Positions 2,901 through 10,156 of a DNA stretch of 64,000 bases are shown piece by piece. Each line of letters begins with the position of its first letter. Position 1 is the first letter of the stretch. The stretch comes from Gammaproteobacteria bacterium (lineage in GTDB: Bacteria; Pseudomonadota; Gammaproteobacteria; Pseudomonadales; Azotimanducaceae): NCBI GenBank assembly GCA_030425195.1, contig JAUIAV010000020.1, positions 1 to 64,000 of the forward strand. The letters are read 5' to 3'. The notes beneath the pieces were generated by a model that made no database searches, was not told the origin of the DNA, and worked only from the letters and a program-made list of their open reading frames with translations. A program made the translations under genes and the position numbers.

Positions 2901-3950
2901 ATGTCCAGCACCGATCTGCTCGACCGTCTGCTCGGACACCACGGCCCCTTCATCGATCTGCGCGCACCGGCGGAATTCGAAGCCGGTGCGGTTCCGGGTG
3001 CCGTGAATCTTCCGCTGCTCACGGACGAGGAACGGCACCAGGTCGGGCTGACCTACCGGCTCGAGGGACAGTCAGCGGCCATCACACTCGGAGAGACGCT
3101 GGTTTCCGGTGCCGTGCGCGACGCCCGCATGTCGGCATGGCTCGCCTTCATCCACGAGAATCCTGAGACCTGGCTCTACTGTTGGCGGGGCGGCCTGCGC
3201 AGCAGCACCGTGCAGACCTGGCTGGCAGAGGCCGGTGCCGCGGTGGAGCGGGTACCCGGCGGTTTCAAAGCTCTGCGCCACCGCTGTCTGGCTCTGCTGG
3301 AGCGCGCGCCGGGGTCGAAACCCTGGCTCGTCCTCGGTGGCCGAACCGGCACGGGCAAGACGCTGGTTCTGAACCGGATCACCGGCAGCATCGATCTGGA
3401 GGGTCTGGCCAATCACCGGGGTTCCGCATTCGGGGGCATGCTGTCGCCTCAGCCCCCGCCAGTGAGTTTCGAGAACGCCCTGGCCGTCGCCTGGCTGAAT
3501 CACACCCACCCGTTCTTGCTGCTCGAGGACGAGAGCCGGACCATCGGCCGGCTGGCCGTACCCGAGGGCTGGCATGGGACCATGCAGCAGGCGCCTCTGG
3601 TGATCCTGGAATCGGAGCTGCCGGATCGGGTGGCCCGGATAGCCGCCGAGTACGTGGCCGAACCTCTGGCGGCGGGGTTGAGCGAGGCGGCACTTTACGA
3701 GCAGCTCGGCGGTGCGCTGGACCGCATTCGGCGTCGGCTGGGCGGAGTCCGGCACCGGACCGTCCGGGAACTGCTGCACGAAGGTTTCCGGTCCGGTGCC
3801 CATGACGCCTGGATCGAACGGCTGCTCACCTGGTACTACGATCCCATGTACGACTACCAGCTGGAGAAGAAGGCAGACCGGGTGATCTTCCGCGGCGATG
3901 CGGAGGACGTGGTCGGATATCTTCAGACGTATCGGCCGGACCCGGCCTGA
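2901..3950 (+). CDS. mnmH: tRNA 2-selenouridine synthase (rhodanese + P-loop domains)
   Basis: N-terminal rhodanese domain with WLYCWRGGLRSSTVQTWL (catalytic Cys), followed by P-loop GGRTGTGKT; LEGLANHRGSAFG motif typical of SelU/MnmH. Confidence 0.92.
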   Translation: MSSTDLLDRLLGHHGPFIDLRAPAEFEAGAVPGAVNLPLLTDEERHQVGLTYRLEGQSAAITLGETLVSGAVRDARMSAWLAFIHENPETWLYCWRGGLRSSTVQTWLAEAGAAVERVPGGFKALRHRCLALLERAPGSKPWLVLGGRTGTGKTLVLNRITGSIDLEGLANHRGSAFGGMLSPQPPPVSFENALAVAWLNHTHPFLLLEDESRTIGRLAVPEGWHGTMQQAPLVILESELPDRVARIAAEYVAEPLAAGLSEAALYEQLGGALDRIRRRLGGVRHRTVRELLHEGFRSGAHDAWIERLLTWYYDPMYDYQLEKKADRVIFRGDAEDVVGYLQTYRPDPA

Positions 3951-3959
3951 ACCGTCCCG

Positions 3960-4319
3960 TCAGTGATCGTGGCCATGCGGCCTGGCGGCGAACGCTTCGT
4001 ACCGCTCCACGAGCTTCGTCCCATCAAGCAGATCTTTCTCCTCGAGCAGGGCCAGAAAGGCGGCAAGGAAGTGGTCGTAGTAGCGGTAGTCCGAGTCCGG
4101 ATCCGCCGCGGCCCCGGATCGATCCCATTGACCGATCTCCGCGATCAGGTGTGCCCGGAACTCGTCCCAGCTGTAGTGGCCCTGTTCCGACATCAGTCTG
4201 GCCATGGCGAACACCCGCCCCTGCCAGGGTGCATCGAAAACCACCTCTCCATTCGCCGCAGGCGGCGCCAGGTCGTCGTCCAGCAGCAGCCCGTTCCATG
4301 ACTCGTTCCGATCCTCCAT
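3960..4319 (-). CDS. Nitrile hydratase accessory/activator protein (P14K-like)
   Basis: VVFDAPWQGRVFAMARLMSEQGHYSWDEFRAHLIAEIG resembles the NHase beta N-terminal/activator fold; directly downstream of NHase alpha. Confidence 0.85.
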   Translation of the reverse strand: MEDRNESWNGLLLDDDLAPPAANGEVVFDAPWQGRVFAMARLMSEQGHYSWDEFRAHLIAEIGQWDRSGAAADPDSDYRYYDHFLAAFLALLEEKDLLDGTKLVERYEAFAARPHGHDH

Positions 4320-4332
4320 CGCCGCGCCGCCT

Positions 4333-4905
4333 TCAGAGCACCGCCACGCCGATCATTGCCTCCCGGGGGACCAGAGCCGCCAGGGCTTCCTCATCCAGAT
4401 CCCCGGTGCCTGCCGGACGCTCGGGCAGGACCAGGTAGCGCACTTCCGCGCTGGAGTCCCAGACCCGTATCTCCCGGGATTCAGGCACGGTCAGCCCGAA
4501 CTCCTCGAGCACGCGGCGGGGTTCCCGAACGATACGCGAGCGGTAGGCCGGGTCCTTGTACCACGCGGGCGGCAGCCCGAGGAGCGCCCAGGGGTAACAG
4601 GAACAGAGCGTGCAGACCACCACGTTGTGCACGTCCGCCGAGTTGGCCACCACCACGAGTTTCTGCACCTCTCCCCCCTGAAAGTCGAAGGGTTCGATGG
4701 CCGCAGTCCCATCCTCGAGCAGCGCTGCCCGGAATTCCGGATCGCACCAGGCTTTCGCCACCACCCGTGCCCCGTTCAGCGGCCCCACCCGGTCATTGAA
4801 CAGGGTCAGGGTCTCGTCCACGTCCGACTCGGAAAGCAGCCCCTGATCGATCAGCAGCGACTCGAGAGCTTCCGCCCGGATAGCCTGTGGTGAATGTTCG
4901 CTCAT
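4333..4905 (-). CDS. nthA: Nitrile hydratase subunit alpha, cobalt type
   Basis: Metal-binding motif VVCTLCSCYPW (C-T-L-C-S-C, Co type rather than Fe-type C-S-L-C-S-C); NGARVVAKAWCDPEFRAALL. Confidence 0.93.
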   Translation of the reverse strand: MSEHSPQAIRAEALESLLIDQGLLSESDVDETLTLFNDRVGPLNGARVVAKAWCDPEFRAALLEDGTAAIEPFDFQGGEVQKLVVVANSADVHNVVVCTLCSCYPWALLGLPPAWYKDPAYRSRIVREPRRVLEEFGLTVPESREIRVWDSSAEVRYLVLPERPAGTGDLDEEALAALVPREAMIGVAVL

Positions 4906-5597
4906 GAGAGATCTCCGGGTTCCGAAGGCGCTGGCGCCAGGTAGGACTCGAACAGATCCAGATGCACGCTCTGCCCCGGTTCCGCTTCCTCACCCCAGAG
5001 TTCCGCGCCTTCGAACCGCACACAGTAGAGGTGTTCCGGCTGCTCTCCGCGGCCATGAGCGTTGGTATCGGGAAACACCCAGCCACCGTGCCGAGCGACG
5101 ATCACACCCAACCGGCCGCGGGCATACGCAGGCAGCCGCGTGTGACCGGAGGTGGTCGTCGAGTTGGTTCTGACAGACTGTCCAACGGAGAACCGGGGTG
5201 CCGCCTGCACCTGTCTCGCAGCCCCCGTCTCTGCTGCCGGGGGCACCTGGTCGGGGTGCGGCCGGGGCCGGGCTGCCACAGGGTCATCCGCTTCACCGCC
5301 CAGCGACAGCACACGTTCGTTCAGCGCCGCAGTTCCGATCACACCGCCCTCCGTCAGCAGGTTCTCCACCCCTCCCAGCCAGCGGCCGTAGTATCCATGC
5401 GTCAGATAGGCGATCGCATCGATCCGTTCGATGGCGTGGCGGAACTGATCCACGTTGCTGATCGCGCCCTGGCGCATCATCCGGTTGACGATGGTGAACA
5501 CACCGGCTTCCCAGCGTTCGTGGAAAACGGGTTCGTCCGCTTCCGGCAGCACCGGCCCGAATCCCTGCCGTCCTCCCAGATCGTGCATGCTGTCCAT
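4902..5597 (-). CDS. nthB: Nitrile hydratase subunit beta
   Basis: MDSMHDLGGRQGFGPVLPEADEPVFHERWEAGVFTIVNRMM; C-terminal TRLPAYARGRLGVIVARHGGWVFPDTNAHGRGEQPEHLYCVRFEGAELWG. Confidence 0.93.
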   Translation of the reverse strand: MDSMHDLGGRQGFGPVLPEADEPVFHERWEAGVFTIVNRMMRQGAISNVDQFRHAIERIDAIAYLTHGYYGRWLGGVENLLTEGGVIGTAALNERVLSLGGEADDPVAARPRPHPDQVPPAAETGAARQVQAAPRFSVGQSVRTNSTTTSGHTRLPAYARGRLGVIVARHGGWVFPDTNAHGRGEQPEHLYCVRFEGAELWGEEAEPGQSVHLDLFESYLAPAPSEPGDLS

Positions 5598-8158
5598 CAG
5601 GACACCTCTCTCAGAACGGGAATACCGTCAACGGATTCACGGAAAGGCGTACTGAACTCATGCCGTCCCGCATCCACCATCCGGCTGCTGCCGTCCGGCA
5701 GGATCACCTCGGCGGTACAGTTACCGGGTACCACCACTGTCAGCAGGAAAGCGTCTTCGGTGATCCGCCAGCTCGACTCGTAGCGTCCGTTCACCGTGAC
5801 GAGCGACGCTTCGATCTCGCGGATCGGCGGTTCACCCGTGGTCTCTCCGATACCGAGTGGCGGTTTCGGCTCGATGTTCATGTGCCGGTAGCCGATGTGA
5901 TTTTCCGACAGGTCGCGGCTCTGCCCGAAGCCTGCCAGCGTTGCCGAAAGCCATTCCAGGAGCCCGGCCCCGATCAGCCGGTTCAGATCTCTGCCGCCGC
6001 TCCCCGGTTCCGGGTGCACGGGCGTATCCAGCAGCAGCCGGTAAGCCAGATCCAGTCTGCCGATGCCGCTCAGCGCGGACAGCAGCCAGGGCACCTCGAG
6101 CAGCGCGCGGCGCTCGCTCATGGATTCCGCACCGCCGCGCAGCGTGGATTCCACGGCATCGACGAGCACACGCCGGGCGCGACGCTGCTCCGACCGGTCG
6201 AGCAGACCGAAGCTCAAGGTGAGGGCGCAGACGTGGGCCCCATCTCCCACTAGCCGTCCGTCCGGGGTGACGAACCGCCGCCGGAAGGCGTTGCGAACGT
6301 TGCTCGCCAGCTCCTCGCAGGTTTCGAGATCTGAAAGGTTGCCGAGCACGCCGGCCATCCGCGCGGTCATGCGTGCCGTGCGGAACAGCCAGGCCGTCGC
6401 AAGCAGATCCGGCGGATAGGCAGGGTCCGCATCCAGGTCCTCCCGGACGAAATCCTGCGCCGCATCCATGCTCCCTGCGAGCAGACGCCTGGCGGCCGGA
6501 TAGTAGCGGCGCAGGAGCCGCCGATCGCCGCTCGTGCGGAACAGTTGCCAGAGGCAGTCGACAAAAACCGCACTGGCGCCCGCGGGACCTTCGGTACACA
6601 GACCATCTTCCGCTGGTGGTGCCGGCACGGCCGCCGGGAAGGCGCCGTTCGGAAATTGGGCATCCACCACGCGACGCAGCCAGCTGCTGACCGCGGCCAC
6701 AGAATCCAGGCAGAGGAGCAGTGCGGGCACCGCGGGGCCGACTTCCGCAAGCCGGTTCATCCGGTCACCGGGGCCGAGCGCCACCAGGCTGGTGCCGGCC
6801 TGGGTGCGTGCGAGATGTGCGAGCAGCTGATCGCTGAGCTGATTGATCCGCGGATGATCCGTGTTCAGCACGAAGGACCGCCGGAGTCCCTGATCGGCGG
6901 CAACTGCCCAGGCACGGACCGCGTCCTCCCGGTACAGGTCCCCTGAGACCTCCACATAGCGGAAGCCGTGCACGGCGAAGCGGCTCTCGAAACCCTCGCC
7001 GGCTTCATTGCCGGAGGCGACGTAGACATCTTCGCTCAGGACCACGGGTGTACCGGTCCCGTCCAGGGCAAGCGCGTACCGGATCCGGATGGCGCCGCCA
7101 TCGGGTGCCCTGAGTTCGAGTCGTGTCCTGCCGAGCACGGGCTCGGGAAATTCGAACAGGGCGCTGCAGCGATCCGGGTCCCAGTGGATCAGCTCACCTT
7201 CCCGCGCGACCGGAACACCCCCGGCGCGACGACGGGCAGGGCTCAGCTGCGTTTCCTCGTCTTCCGGCCGGGCACCCTGATTGACCGGGTACCAGCCGAA
7301 GCTGCCTGGTCCCTGGCCCAGCCAGTCGTCCCGCCGTCTGACTCCATCCGCCGCTTCACCCCCCACAGGATCCGCGGCCAGAATCCAGGAAGGCTGCCAG
7401 CGCCAGCCGCTGTCCGTGGACAGCCACCACTGGCTGCCGTCACCGAGCCCGGCTTTGAGCTCCAGGAGAAATTCCGGACGATCGCCGTACTGCTGGCGGC
7501 CGCCGGCACCGGGATCGCCCGCATACCAGCCGTCCCCGAGCAGCACGGCCAGCCGGTTCTCGCCTTCCCGGAGCAGGTCGGTCACGTCCAGACTGTGGTA
7601 AGGCGTGCGCAGACCATAGTCCACCCAGGCTGCTGGCAGGGGATCCAGCGTGGTGCCGTTCAACTGCACCGCCGCTTCGCCCCGAGCGGCCAGATAGAGC
7701 CGAGCCCCGACCACCGGCTGCTGGAGCGTGAAAGTCCGGCCGAACAGCGGCACCGGCACCGGGGTAATCCGGGATCCCACCTGTCCTGCGCTGATCCAGC
7801 GTCCCATCCAGTCGCGGGCCTCGAGCAGGCCCATCTCGAACGTCGCCGGATCGCTCCAGGGGCTCGGCAGGCCGTCGCTGTCGAAAGTCCTCACCTTCCA
7901 GAACACCCTTCGTCCCGAGGTGAGCGGTTTCCCGCCATATTCGATCTGCACGGTTTCCCGGCCTTCCATACGTCCGGGATCCCACAGATCCCCTTCGTCC
8001 ATGGCCAGCAGGTCCGGGTGCGAGGCAGCCAGCAGCTGATAGGCCGTCTGCAGCTCAGCGGCTCTGTCGTCGCCCGACCACCAGGACAGCCGGGGCCGTT
8101 CGGTGTCGATGCCGAGCGGATCGTCCTGGTAGTCCGTGCGCAGGTGAGCGGGCTTCAT
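5597..8158 (-). CDS. GH78 (alpha-L-rhamnosidase-fold) family protein with degenerate catalytic motifs
   Basis: N-terminal PAHLRTDYQDDPLGIDTERPRLSWW, a Bac_rhamnosid-like mid region and C-terminal GYRHMNIEPKPP. Stop overlaps the nthB start. Start chosen at MKPAHLRTDY. Confidence 0.82.
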   Translation of the reverse strand: MKPAHLRTDYQDDPLGIDTERPRLSWWSGDDRAAELQTAYQLLAASHPDLLAMDEGDLWDPGRMEGRETVQIEYGGKPLTSGRRVFWKVRTFDSDGLPSPWSDPATFEMGLLEARDWMGRWISAGQVGSRITPVPVPLFGRTFTLQQPVVGARLYLAARGEAAVQLNGTTLDPLPAAWVDYGLRTPYHSLDVTDLLREGENRLAVLLGDGWYAGDPGAGGRQQYGDRPEFLLELKAGLGDGSQWWLSTDSGWRWQPSWILAADPVGGEAADGVRRRDDWLGQGPGSFGWYPVNQGARPEDEETQLSPARRRAGGVPVAREGELIHWDPDRCSALFEFPEPVLGRTRLELRAPDGGAIRIRYALALDGTGTPVVLSEDVYVASGNEAGEGFESRFAVHGFRYVEVSGDLYREDAVRAWAVAADQGLRRSFVLNTDHPRINQLSDQLLAHLARTQAGTSLVALGPGDRMNRLAEVGPAVPALLLCLDSVAAVSSWLRRVVDAQFPNGAFPAAVPAPPAEDGLCTEGPAGASAVFVDCLWQLFRTSGDRRLLRRYYPAARRLLAGSMDAAQDFVREDLDADPAYPPDLLATAWLFRTARMTARMAGVLGNLSDLETCEELASNVRNAFRRRFVTPDGRLVGDGAHVCALTLSFGLLDRSEQRRARRVLVDAVESTLRGGAESMSERRALLEVPWLLSALSGIGRLDLAYRLLLDTPVHPEPGSGGRDLNRLIGAGLLEWLSATLAGFGQSRDLSENHIGYRHMNIEPKPPLGIGETTGEPPIREIEASLVTVNGRYESSWRITEDAFLLTVVVPGNCTAEVILPDGSSRMVDAGRHEFSTPFRESVDGIPVLREVS

Positions 8159-8219: not shown

Positions 8220-8271
8220 GGGAGCCGCTGAGCAGGCATGCGCATACCTGCTCAGCGGCTCCCTCGTTTTT
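8220..8271 (+). terminator. Strong hairpin with T-tract in + orientation
   Basis: Perfect 17-bp arms GGGAGCCGCTGAGCAGG / CCTGCTCAGCGGCTCCC with a 10-nt loop, followed by TCGTTTTT on the + strand. Confidence 0.65.
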
Positions 8272-8276
8272 ATGTT

Positions 8277-9143
8277 TCAAGTTTGCGTCAGAAATTTCTT
8301 CGTGGCCATCACTACGGCGTCGAGCTGATCGTGATGCACCCAGTGACCGGCCTTATCCACATCGATCAGCTCAGCGTGAACGAAATGCGCCAGGGTGTCG
8401 TCCTGCCCGGTCCTGTGCGGAAATCCCTGCCGGGCATTGATGATCAGCGTCGCGCAGGCGATGGATTGCCAGAGGGATACGGTCTCCTCCACCGGCACCC
8501 GGTAGGCGGGGTAAGCGTGGGTGTAATTGTCGTACTTCCAGCTGAAGGACCCATCCTCGTTCTGATTGCTGCCATGGACGGTGAGATGCCGGGCCTGATC
8601 CTCGTTCAGATGCGCGTTCGCCTCCCGCATTCTGGCGAAAGCGTCTTCGAGCGTCGGGTAGCGGCGGATCTGCCGCCCGGCCAGGGCCCGGGTGTTGTCC
8701 ACCCAGTTGCGGATGCGATCCGCCGGCGTCTGATCGTCGAACAGGCCCGGCCAGAGGCCGACGCCTTCGAGGAGCACGAGCGAGCTGACCAGCTCCGGGT
8801 AGGCACCGGCAAAGAGCGCCGCGAGGGATCCGCCCATCGAATGTCCGACCACCACCACGGGATCCAGCGACCGCTGCCGGACGAGCTGCACGAGATCGTA
8901 GACGTAGTCCACGTGGTGGTAACTCGATCCACGCACCCACTCCGAGTCCCCATGGCCTCTGAGGTCGGGGGCGACGATGTGATAGTCGTCCGCGAAGTGC
9001 TCGGCGAACCAGTCCCAGGTGCGGCAGTGGTCCTGGCTGCCGTGCACCAAGAGCATGTGCGGTGCGGTTTCGTTGCCCCAGTCGAGATAGTGCAGGCGCA
9101 GACGCTGGGAGTAATAGCTGTGTGAGGTCGGTTTTCTGGTCAT
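8277..9143 (-). CDS. Alpha/beta hydrolase
   Basis: LLVHGSQDHCRTWDWFAEHF, DLRGHGDSEW, nucleophile elbow VVGHSMGGSLAA, C-terminal DKAGHWVHHD. Confidence 0.9.
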   Translation of the reverse strand: MTRKPTSHSYYSQRLRLHYLDWGNETAPHMLLVHGSQDHCRTWDWFAEHFADDYHIVAPDLRGHGDSEWVRGSSYHHVDYVYDLVQLVRQRSLDPVVVVGHSMGGSLAALFAGAYPELVSSLVLLEGVGLWPGLFDDQTPADRIRNWVDNTRALAGRQIRRYPTLEDAFARMREANAHLNEDQARHLTVHGSNQNEDGSFSWKYDNYTHAYPAYRVPVEETVSLWQSIACATLIINARQGFPHRTGQDDTLAHFVHAELIDVDKAGHWVHHDQLDAVVMATKKFLTQT

Positions 9144-10057
9144 CGTTTCCGTTTTCTCTGGTGCTTCTGAATCGCTGTGTCCGGCGCGCCCAGCAGGCGC
9201 GACTCGAGCCGGCTGAATACCGACTGGAGGTAGGTGGAGAGCGACCGTATGCGCGGCGCGCCGCGCAGGTCCGGATGGAACAGCAGCCAGATCGGCTGCG
9301 CTTCCAGCGCTTCCAGCTCGCCCAGCCGCACGAGACGGTGGTCCGCATCTCCCACCGCGCAGGGAAGCAGCGTGATCCCCATGCCTGCGGCAACGGCCGC
9401 CTGCTGGAGCAGTACGCTGTTGCAGCGCACGCCGGCCGGTACCCGGGCGAAGTGCCGGCTCTTGAACCCCGGGGCTCTGATGGTCTCCAGACCGGATTCT
9501 ATCCAGGCCGCGGTTTCCGGGGATCCGAACGGATCATGCTCCGCCAGATAGCTGCGTGCACCGTACACACCCAGGCGGGATTCCCCGAGCTGGCGTGCGA
9601 TCAGCGATTCAGGCGGCTGATCGGTCACCCGGATGGCCATGTCCGCTTCCCCCCGATCCAGGTCCAGTTCCCGGTAGTTCGGAATGAACTCGAGACGGAC
9701 TGCCGGATGCTCTGCGGCAAACGCGCTGAGCTCAGGGATCAGCACGATGGCCAGCACGTCCGGGAGCGTCAGCCGGATGGTCCCGGCAATCTCGTCTCCC
9801 CGGCCGACGAGGGCGGCTTCCAGATCGCCCAGGTCCGCCGCCACCGGTGCGAGCCTGGCGTACAGCTCGCTGCCGTCGCCGGTGAGCTCGAGCCCGGCAT
9901 GGCTGCGCACGAACAGCTTCACGCCCAGGCGGTTTTCGAGCCCATCCAGACGCCGGGTGACCGTGGAGGCGTTGACGCCCAGACGATCGGCGCTGGCCCG
10001 GACGGATCCGGATTGCACCAGGGTCACGAAAAAGCGATAGTCGTCCCAGTTAGCCAC
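9140..10057 (-). CDS. LysR-family transcriptional regulator
   Basis: NWDDYRFFVTLVQSGSVRASADRLGVNASTVTRRLDGLENRLGVKLFVRSHAGLELT HTH; GTG start at 10057 preferred over the upstream TTG. Confidence 0.88.
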   Translation of the reverse strand: MANWDDYRFFVTLVQSGSVRASADRLGVNASTVTRRLDGLENRLGVKLFVRSHAGLELTGDGSELYARLAPVAADLGDLEAALVGRGDEIAGTIRLTLPDVLAIVLIPELSAFAAEHPAVRLEFIPNYRELDLDRGEADMAIRVTDQPPESLIARQLGESRLGVYGARSYLAEHDPFGSPETAAWIESGLETIRAPGFKSRHFARVPAGVRCNSVLLQQAAVAAGMGITLLPCAVGDADHRLVRLGELEALEAQPIWLLFHPDLRGAPRIRSLSTYLQSVFSRLESRLLGAPDTAIQKHQRKRKR

Positions 10058-10092
10058 TGCGCGCAACACTCCTGAGGATTCGGGGCAAATGC

Positions 10093-10156
10093 GTTGCAAT
10101 TATGCAACACATCGTTGCGTTACCATAGGTTGCATTTCATGTTACCTAAAGTAACA
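10093..10156. promoter_or_regulatory. Two palindromes in the LysR/ECH divergent intergenic region (candidate LysR operators)
   Basis: GTTGCA-atta-TGCAAC (10093-10108) and TGTTAC-ctaaa-GTAACA (10140-10156), just upstream of the LysR start. Confidence 0.5.

Follow-up and report, generated by a model that had tools for sequence, protein, structure and literature searches.

GH78L, an 853-residue protein encoded immediately upstream of a cobalt-type nitrile hydratase (NHase), is probably a GH78-derived pseudoenzyme that lost its active site once, inside the NHase operon, and now likely acts as a binding, scaffold or regulatory partner. Its descent from an active family was recovered in trees, its catalytic residues have been lost, and its gene has been kept by selection, as indicated by dN/dS. 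Comparative sequence evidence supports well that GH78L is a pseudo-glycosidase retained by selection for a non-catalytic role, and binding or scaffolding via the Ig-like and C-terminal parts is what we would best infer for that role. The gene lies in a window of 64,000 nucleotides, which is the whole stretch of DNA analysed, and its locus comprises the following features:

5597..8158, minus strand: GH78L, pseudo-glycosidase of GH78 fold, 853 aa (five GH78 Pfam domains; nearest structures GH78 rhamnosidases; 0/8 site residues kept)
4902..5597, minus strand: nthB, nitrile hydratase beta subunit (TIGR03888, 7e-73)
4333..4905, minus strand: nthA, nitrile hydratase alpha subunit, cobalt type, CTLCSC (TIGR01323, 2.1e-84, and motif)
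3960..4319, minus strand: nitrile hydratase accessory (activator) protein (TIGR03889, 4.1e-18)
8277..9143, minus strand: alpha/beta-hydrolase gene, upstream, same direction, conserved in most loci (PF00561, 3.4e-23; synteny)
9140..10099, minus strand: LysR-type regulator gene, conserved in most loci (PF03466 and PF00126; synteny)
2901..3950, plus strand: mnmH, convergent flank outside the operon, marking a fixed chromosomal site (NF008751, 8.1e-119; synteny)

The stop of GH78L and the start of nthB share one base (TGATG), an overlap that the first-pass annotation had reported, and its assignment of the NHase to the cobalt type was borne out by the CTLCSC motif in nthA. Its placement of GH78L at the operon head is not strictly correct, as same-strand LysR and alpha/beta-hydrolase genes precede GH78L. 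The usual gene order is LysR, alpha/beta hydrolase, GH78L, nthB, nthA and activator, with mnmH convergent. The beta-alpha-activator order is the same as that described for Co-type NHases (PMC3511329), and the CTLCSC motif is also found in nthA here; the locus differs in the GH78-fold, alpha/beta-hydrolase and LysR genes added upstream. Twelve amidase-family genes are located elsewhere in the source genome, and therefore the amide product could be processed outside the operon. A perfect inverted repeat (8220-8263, arms of ~20 bp) that folds very stably was observed between the hydrolase gene and GH78L, and its core has no other occurrence in the window; this element could separate the transcription of the hydrolase gene and GH78L or serve as a processing site.

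The GH78L reading frame on the minus strand (5597-8158) is intact over 853 residues, and every sequence stretch quoted in the first-pass annotation was found in it. All five GH78 domains (Ig-like, N-terminal, concanavalin-like, six-hairpin and C-terminal) are present, and the corresponding Pfam families scored above their cut-offs, namely, Ig_Rha78A_N (4.8e-33), Bac_rhamnosid_N (1.7e-26), Bac_rhamnosid6H (4.1e-25), Bac_rhamnosid_C (5.4e-13) and Bac_rhamnosid (9.9e-09), thereby confirming the GH78 assignment by HMM. The best solved-structure matches by sequence were GH78 rhamnosidases (3W5M, 9.8e-77; 6I60, 1.3e-52; 6GSZ, 1.1e-45). An AlphaFold2 model built from 16 family members (pLDDT 77, pTM 0.69) retrieved GH78 structures first in a fold search (3W5N, 2.1e-49), in agreement with the fold originally proposed. 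The gene is the sole match in the source genome. GH78L therefore has the same domains and fold as SaRha78A (PDB 3W5M/3W5N), 6I60 and 6GSZ, with significant sequence similarity, but differs from SaRha78A-type GH78 alpha-L-rhamnosidases in that none of the eight catalytic and subsite residues examined is retained and the general-base loop is deleted. The altered regions are as follows:

6743..6784, minus strand: GH78L residues 459-472 (VALGPGDRMNRLAE), which replace the general-acid motif TDCPQRDERLGWTGD (alignment to intact relatives)
5951..6028, minus strand: GH78L residues 711-736, general-base region (26 residues vs 50 in intact relatives)

SaRha78A uses E636 as general acid and E895 as general base (PMC7263609). 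The site residues of GH78L were mapped to this enzyme (3W5M) via alignment with intact relatives, and the numbering of the subsite residues was recounted on the 3W5M sequence. Residues D630, W640, D643, W695, W747 and H916 are those that we take to form the rhamnose-binding -1 subsite. The positions D630/E636/W640/D643/W695/W747/E895/H916 correspond to V459/D465/R469/E472/A528/gap/gap/R727 in GH78L, so that none of the eight is kept: the general acid is replaced by D465, the general base falls in a deletion, and the six subsite positions read V, R, E, A, gap and R. In residues 711-736, deletion or replacement has removed both the WERW general-base loop and SFNHYA, with ~24 residues of the loop gone. 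Intact GH78 controls, four of which came from the order's other families and the fifth from the family of the source genome (G006), retained 8/8 site residues in 5/5 cases and in the same columns, thereby ruling out a wrong alignment register. Eroded relatives (n = 26 compared) keep 0-2 site residues each, with both glutamates in 0/26, and the residues were lost in many different ways across copies. The missing catalytic motifs noted at first pass were thus verified, and the pseudo-glycosidase reading stands, as the site is lost and no other acidic residues were found substituting at the catalytic positions in the alignment. Sugar binding at the rhamnose site, which had been entertained for this protein, is not supported, given the loss of the subsite tryptophans, D630, D643 and H916 together with the catalytic glutamates.

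Reading frames are open in all GH78L copies. Pairwise Nei-Gojobori estimates, which are not codon-model fits, gave dN/dS values of 0.091, 0.113, 0.134, 0.122 and 0.083 for close eroded pairs and 0.28 for a more distant pair (source-genome GH78L vs G003); the neighbour genes of the same pairs fell mostly in a similar range. The eroded copies are under purifying selection. A decaying relic, losing function and merely carried along at the locus, would agree with the many different ways in which the site was lost, the fast evolution of the G026, G009 and G793 copies and the shortened copy in G113. Such a relic is nevertheless very unlikely: frames are open in all copies, close-pair dN/dS (0.08-0.13) is like that of functional genes nearby, and the eroded clade extends across genera. 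Ordinary decay was rejected on the open frames and dN/dS.

The barrel is the most conserved part of the near-intact copies (n = 4; identity 0.62), with the Ig-like domain at 0.56. Among the eroded copies, identity is highest in the Ig-like domain (0.56), followed by the tail (0.46), the C-terminal domain (0.45) and the barrel (0.33), and conservation of the tail rises from near-intact to eroded copies. Constraint has moved away from the barrel and now lies on the Ig-like domain, the C-terminal domain and the tail. Among the lineage-specific positions that survived the loss are D30, R32, A34, E35, S94 and D95 as well as R600, R622, R628, I846 and P847. Two conserved segments were delimited:

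8054..8071, minus strand: residues 30-35 (DDRAAE), lineage-specific conserved Ig-like loop kept after the loss (conservation; 31-35 of low model confidence)
5600..5629, minus strand: residues 844-853 (DGIPVLREVS), conserved C-terminal tail (conservation; REVS overlaps the likely nthB ribosome-binding site)

Loop 31-35 and the tail are of low confidence in the AlphaFold2 model and may resemble flexible binding segments. Conservation of the tail merely as the nthB ribosome-binding site was rejected, as this would explain REVS and not DGIPVL; the tail persists in G015 and G009, where no nthB follows.

A continued enzymatic role, in which the old barrel performs another reaction or uses other catalytic residues, was also considered. 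The arginine adjoining the lost acid (R637 of SaRha78A, R466 beside D465 in GH78L) is present in 25/26 eroded copies, and the source-genome protein has an aspartate at the general-acid position. We regard this alternative as quite unlikely, however, because the barrel holds few conserved acidic positions, most of them common to ordinary GH78s or away from the motifs, it now ranks among the domains with the least conservation, and no new active site is visible, with only five eroded-specific conserved positions in the whole protein. The retained fold and R637 arginine, together with the co-located LysR gene and NHase, would also fit a sensor or carrier whose old pocket still binds a small molecule of the pathway (nitrile, amide or sugar conjugate). 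The rhamnose-holding tryptophans and polar residues were lost along with the catalytic ones, and pocket positions vary freely among eroded copies; a role of this kind is accordingly unlikely, if somewhat easier to entertain than an enzyme.

The order of losses was examined in a GH78 tree rooted on four outside GH78s, which included 24 eroded copies and omitted the fast-evolving G009 and G026 copies. G006 branched first; next came G007 and G029, both with a complete site, together with G022 (4/8), then G034 (6/8) and then the eroded clade, which contained all 24 eroded copies with support of 100/100 and covers about ten genera. Placement of the near-intact copies among themselves was less supported (83/62 and 90/92). 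The N-terminal half alone recovered the same eroded clade (98/97; 25 copies, G009 and G026 omitted), thereby ruling out an artefact of the eroded barrel. G007, G029 and G034 are already within the NHase operon, and therefore the operon predates the loss of the site. We conclude that catalysis was lost once, after GH78 had joined the NHase operon.

The complete-site, NHase-linked copies of G007 and G029, which precede the eroded clade, bear on an operon that degrades rhamnosylated nitriles, with the GH78 enzyme taking off the sugar and NHase hydrating the nitrile. Such a pathway may describe the ancestor and is conceivable, judging from site residues, only for these intact copies. The source-genome protein and the entire eroded clade cannot work so, and a search of the open-access literature found no paper linking the two functions. 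As an account of the present operon it is highly improbable, and the link to glycosylated nitriles that had been suggested is not supported for eroded GH78L, where the sugar-binding residues are gone.

The GH78L lineage was found in 33/207 genomes of the same uncultured gammaproteobacterial family (34 with the ordinary GH78 of G006), and its members include the gammaproteobacterial MAGs SZUA-309 and SZUA-228. Outside this family, none was detected in a sample of 387 class-level genomes, the source genome excepted. Order-level matches in other families (four checked) were ordinary intact GH78s with no NHase nearby, and the match in G602 was an N-terminal piece only, at a contig end. NthB lies directly 3' of GH78L in 26/31 assessable genomes, two further genomes being cut by contig ends, and the stop-to-start spacing ranges from -17 to +68 bases. 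A chance arrangement is excluded because the same arrangement was found in 26 genomes, and the conserved linkage with NHase on which the first-pass annotation depended was thus established. Groups in the NHase tree match the GH78L groups, so that co-location in 26/31 loci is accompanied by co-inheritance.

Co-occurrence is not strict: the complete genome G015 has an eroded GH78L and no NHase, and NHase is therefore not obligatory for keeping GH78L. NHase was also not found in G022 (99% complete) or in G129, a genome that is 73% complete. In G009, NHase is on a separate contig from GH78L and its sequence still nests among linked NHases; in G796, the activator gene alone is beside GH78L, with NHase on another contig. 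NHase is present in 21/26 genomes with GH78L vs 71/125 without (Fisher p 0.027, kinship ignored). When 24 linked and 8 unlinked NHases were compared, no alignment column told the two sets apart. The wider locus is conserved between mnmH and an ileS-Rieske region, and adjacency of GH78L and NHase is therefore partly inherited synteny; the very short GH78L-nthB spacing still argues for co-expression. In G013 (L056:6822-9535), the mnmH site is occupied by NHase genes and lacks GH78L, the hydrolase and LysR, which indicates that this site can hold NHase alone.

The history proposed for the pseudoenzyme would begin with an active cytosolic GH78 that already belonged, at a fixed chromosomal site in this family, to an operon of LysR, alpha/beta-hydrolase and nthB-nthA-activator genes. 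A later, single loss would have removed the rhamnosidase site (the general-base loop, the tryptophans of the subsite and both glutamates), with the fold retained. Selection now acts most strongly on the tail and the Ig-like and C-terminal domains, and binding of another macromolecule would therefore be most likely, GH78L being co-produced with the cobalt NHase and serving in scaffolding, assembly or regulation. NHase or its co-expressed enzymes are plausible partners, which we infer from co-expression and shared history; against NHase count the lack of a signature on its subunits, the G015 genome without NHase and the unlinked G009 and G796. The scaffolding role first suggested fits the present location of constraint, with NHase as a putative partner. 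More tentatively, and with a modest chance at best, GH78L could be a bacterial pseudo-glycosidase turned NHase partner, serving in the assembly, maturation or structure of a cobalt NHase complex of a new type, with living intermediates from active to dead.

Klotho is a pseudo-glycosidase with a partner role. Such roles are also described for the alpha-amylase-family proteins 4F2hc/rBAT (PMC8537225, PMC7589757) and for heparanase 2 (PMC12406646). GH78L resembles all of them in having a glycosidase fold, is predicted to share their (near-)absence of glycosidase activity and would likewise work on or with another protein. The described partner-role pseudo-glycosidases that we found are animal proteins of other GH families, whereas GH78L is a bacterial case, of GH78 and in an NHase operon, with living intact and intermediate relatives. 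Neither a gene link between NHase and rhamnosidase nor a comparable inactive GH78 protein was found in the open-access literature, a scope that leaves most subscription journals outside. What is new here is the GH family and the context in which a pseudo-glycosidase occurs. An intact-to-dead series in one operon of one bacterial family makes the change of function traceable stepwise, and cobalt NHases, used as industrial biocatalysts, may in some cases possess an extra partner protein.

Several further loci deserve mention. The GH78L copy of G022 (L033:712-3465), with 4/8 site residues, lies between putative TetR-type and radical-SAM genes. In G790 (L064:1144-6859), ~5.7 kb separates nthB and nthA within the operon, which might reflect insertion of a mobile element. 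The linked NHase alpha of G092 (L042:6507-7091) reads CTLWSC instead of the metal-binding CTLCSC, and the genome has a second NHase alpha; the substitution reflects an error in sequencing, or else the NHase is dead here alongside a dead GH78. In the same family, G103:C1 and G064:C1 carry 16 and 13 short partial matches to the NHase alpha profile, which probably represent arrays of RiPP precursors with NHase-like leader peptides.
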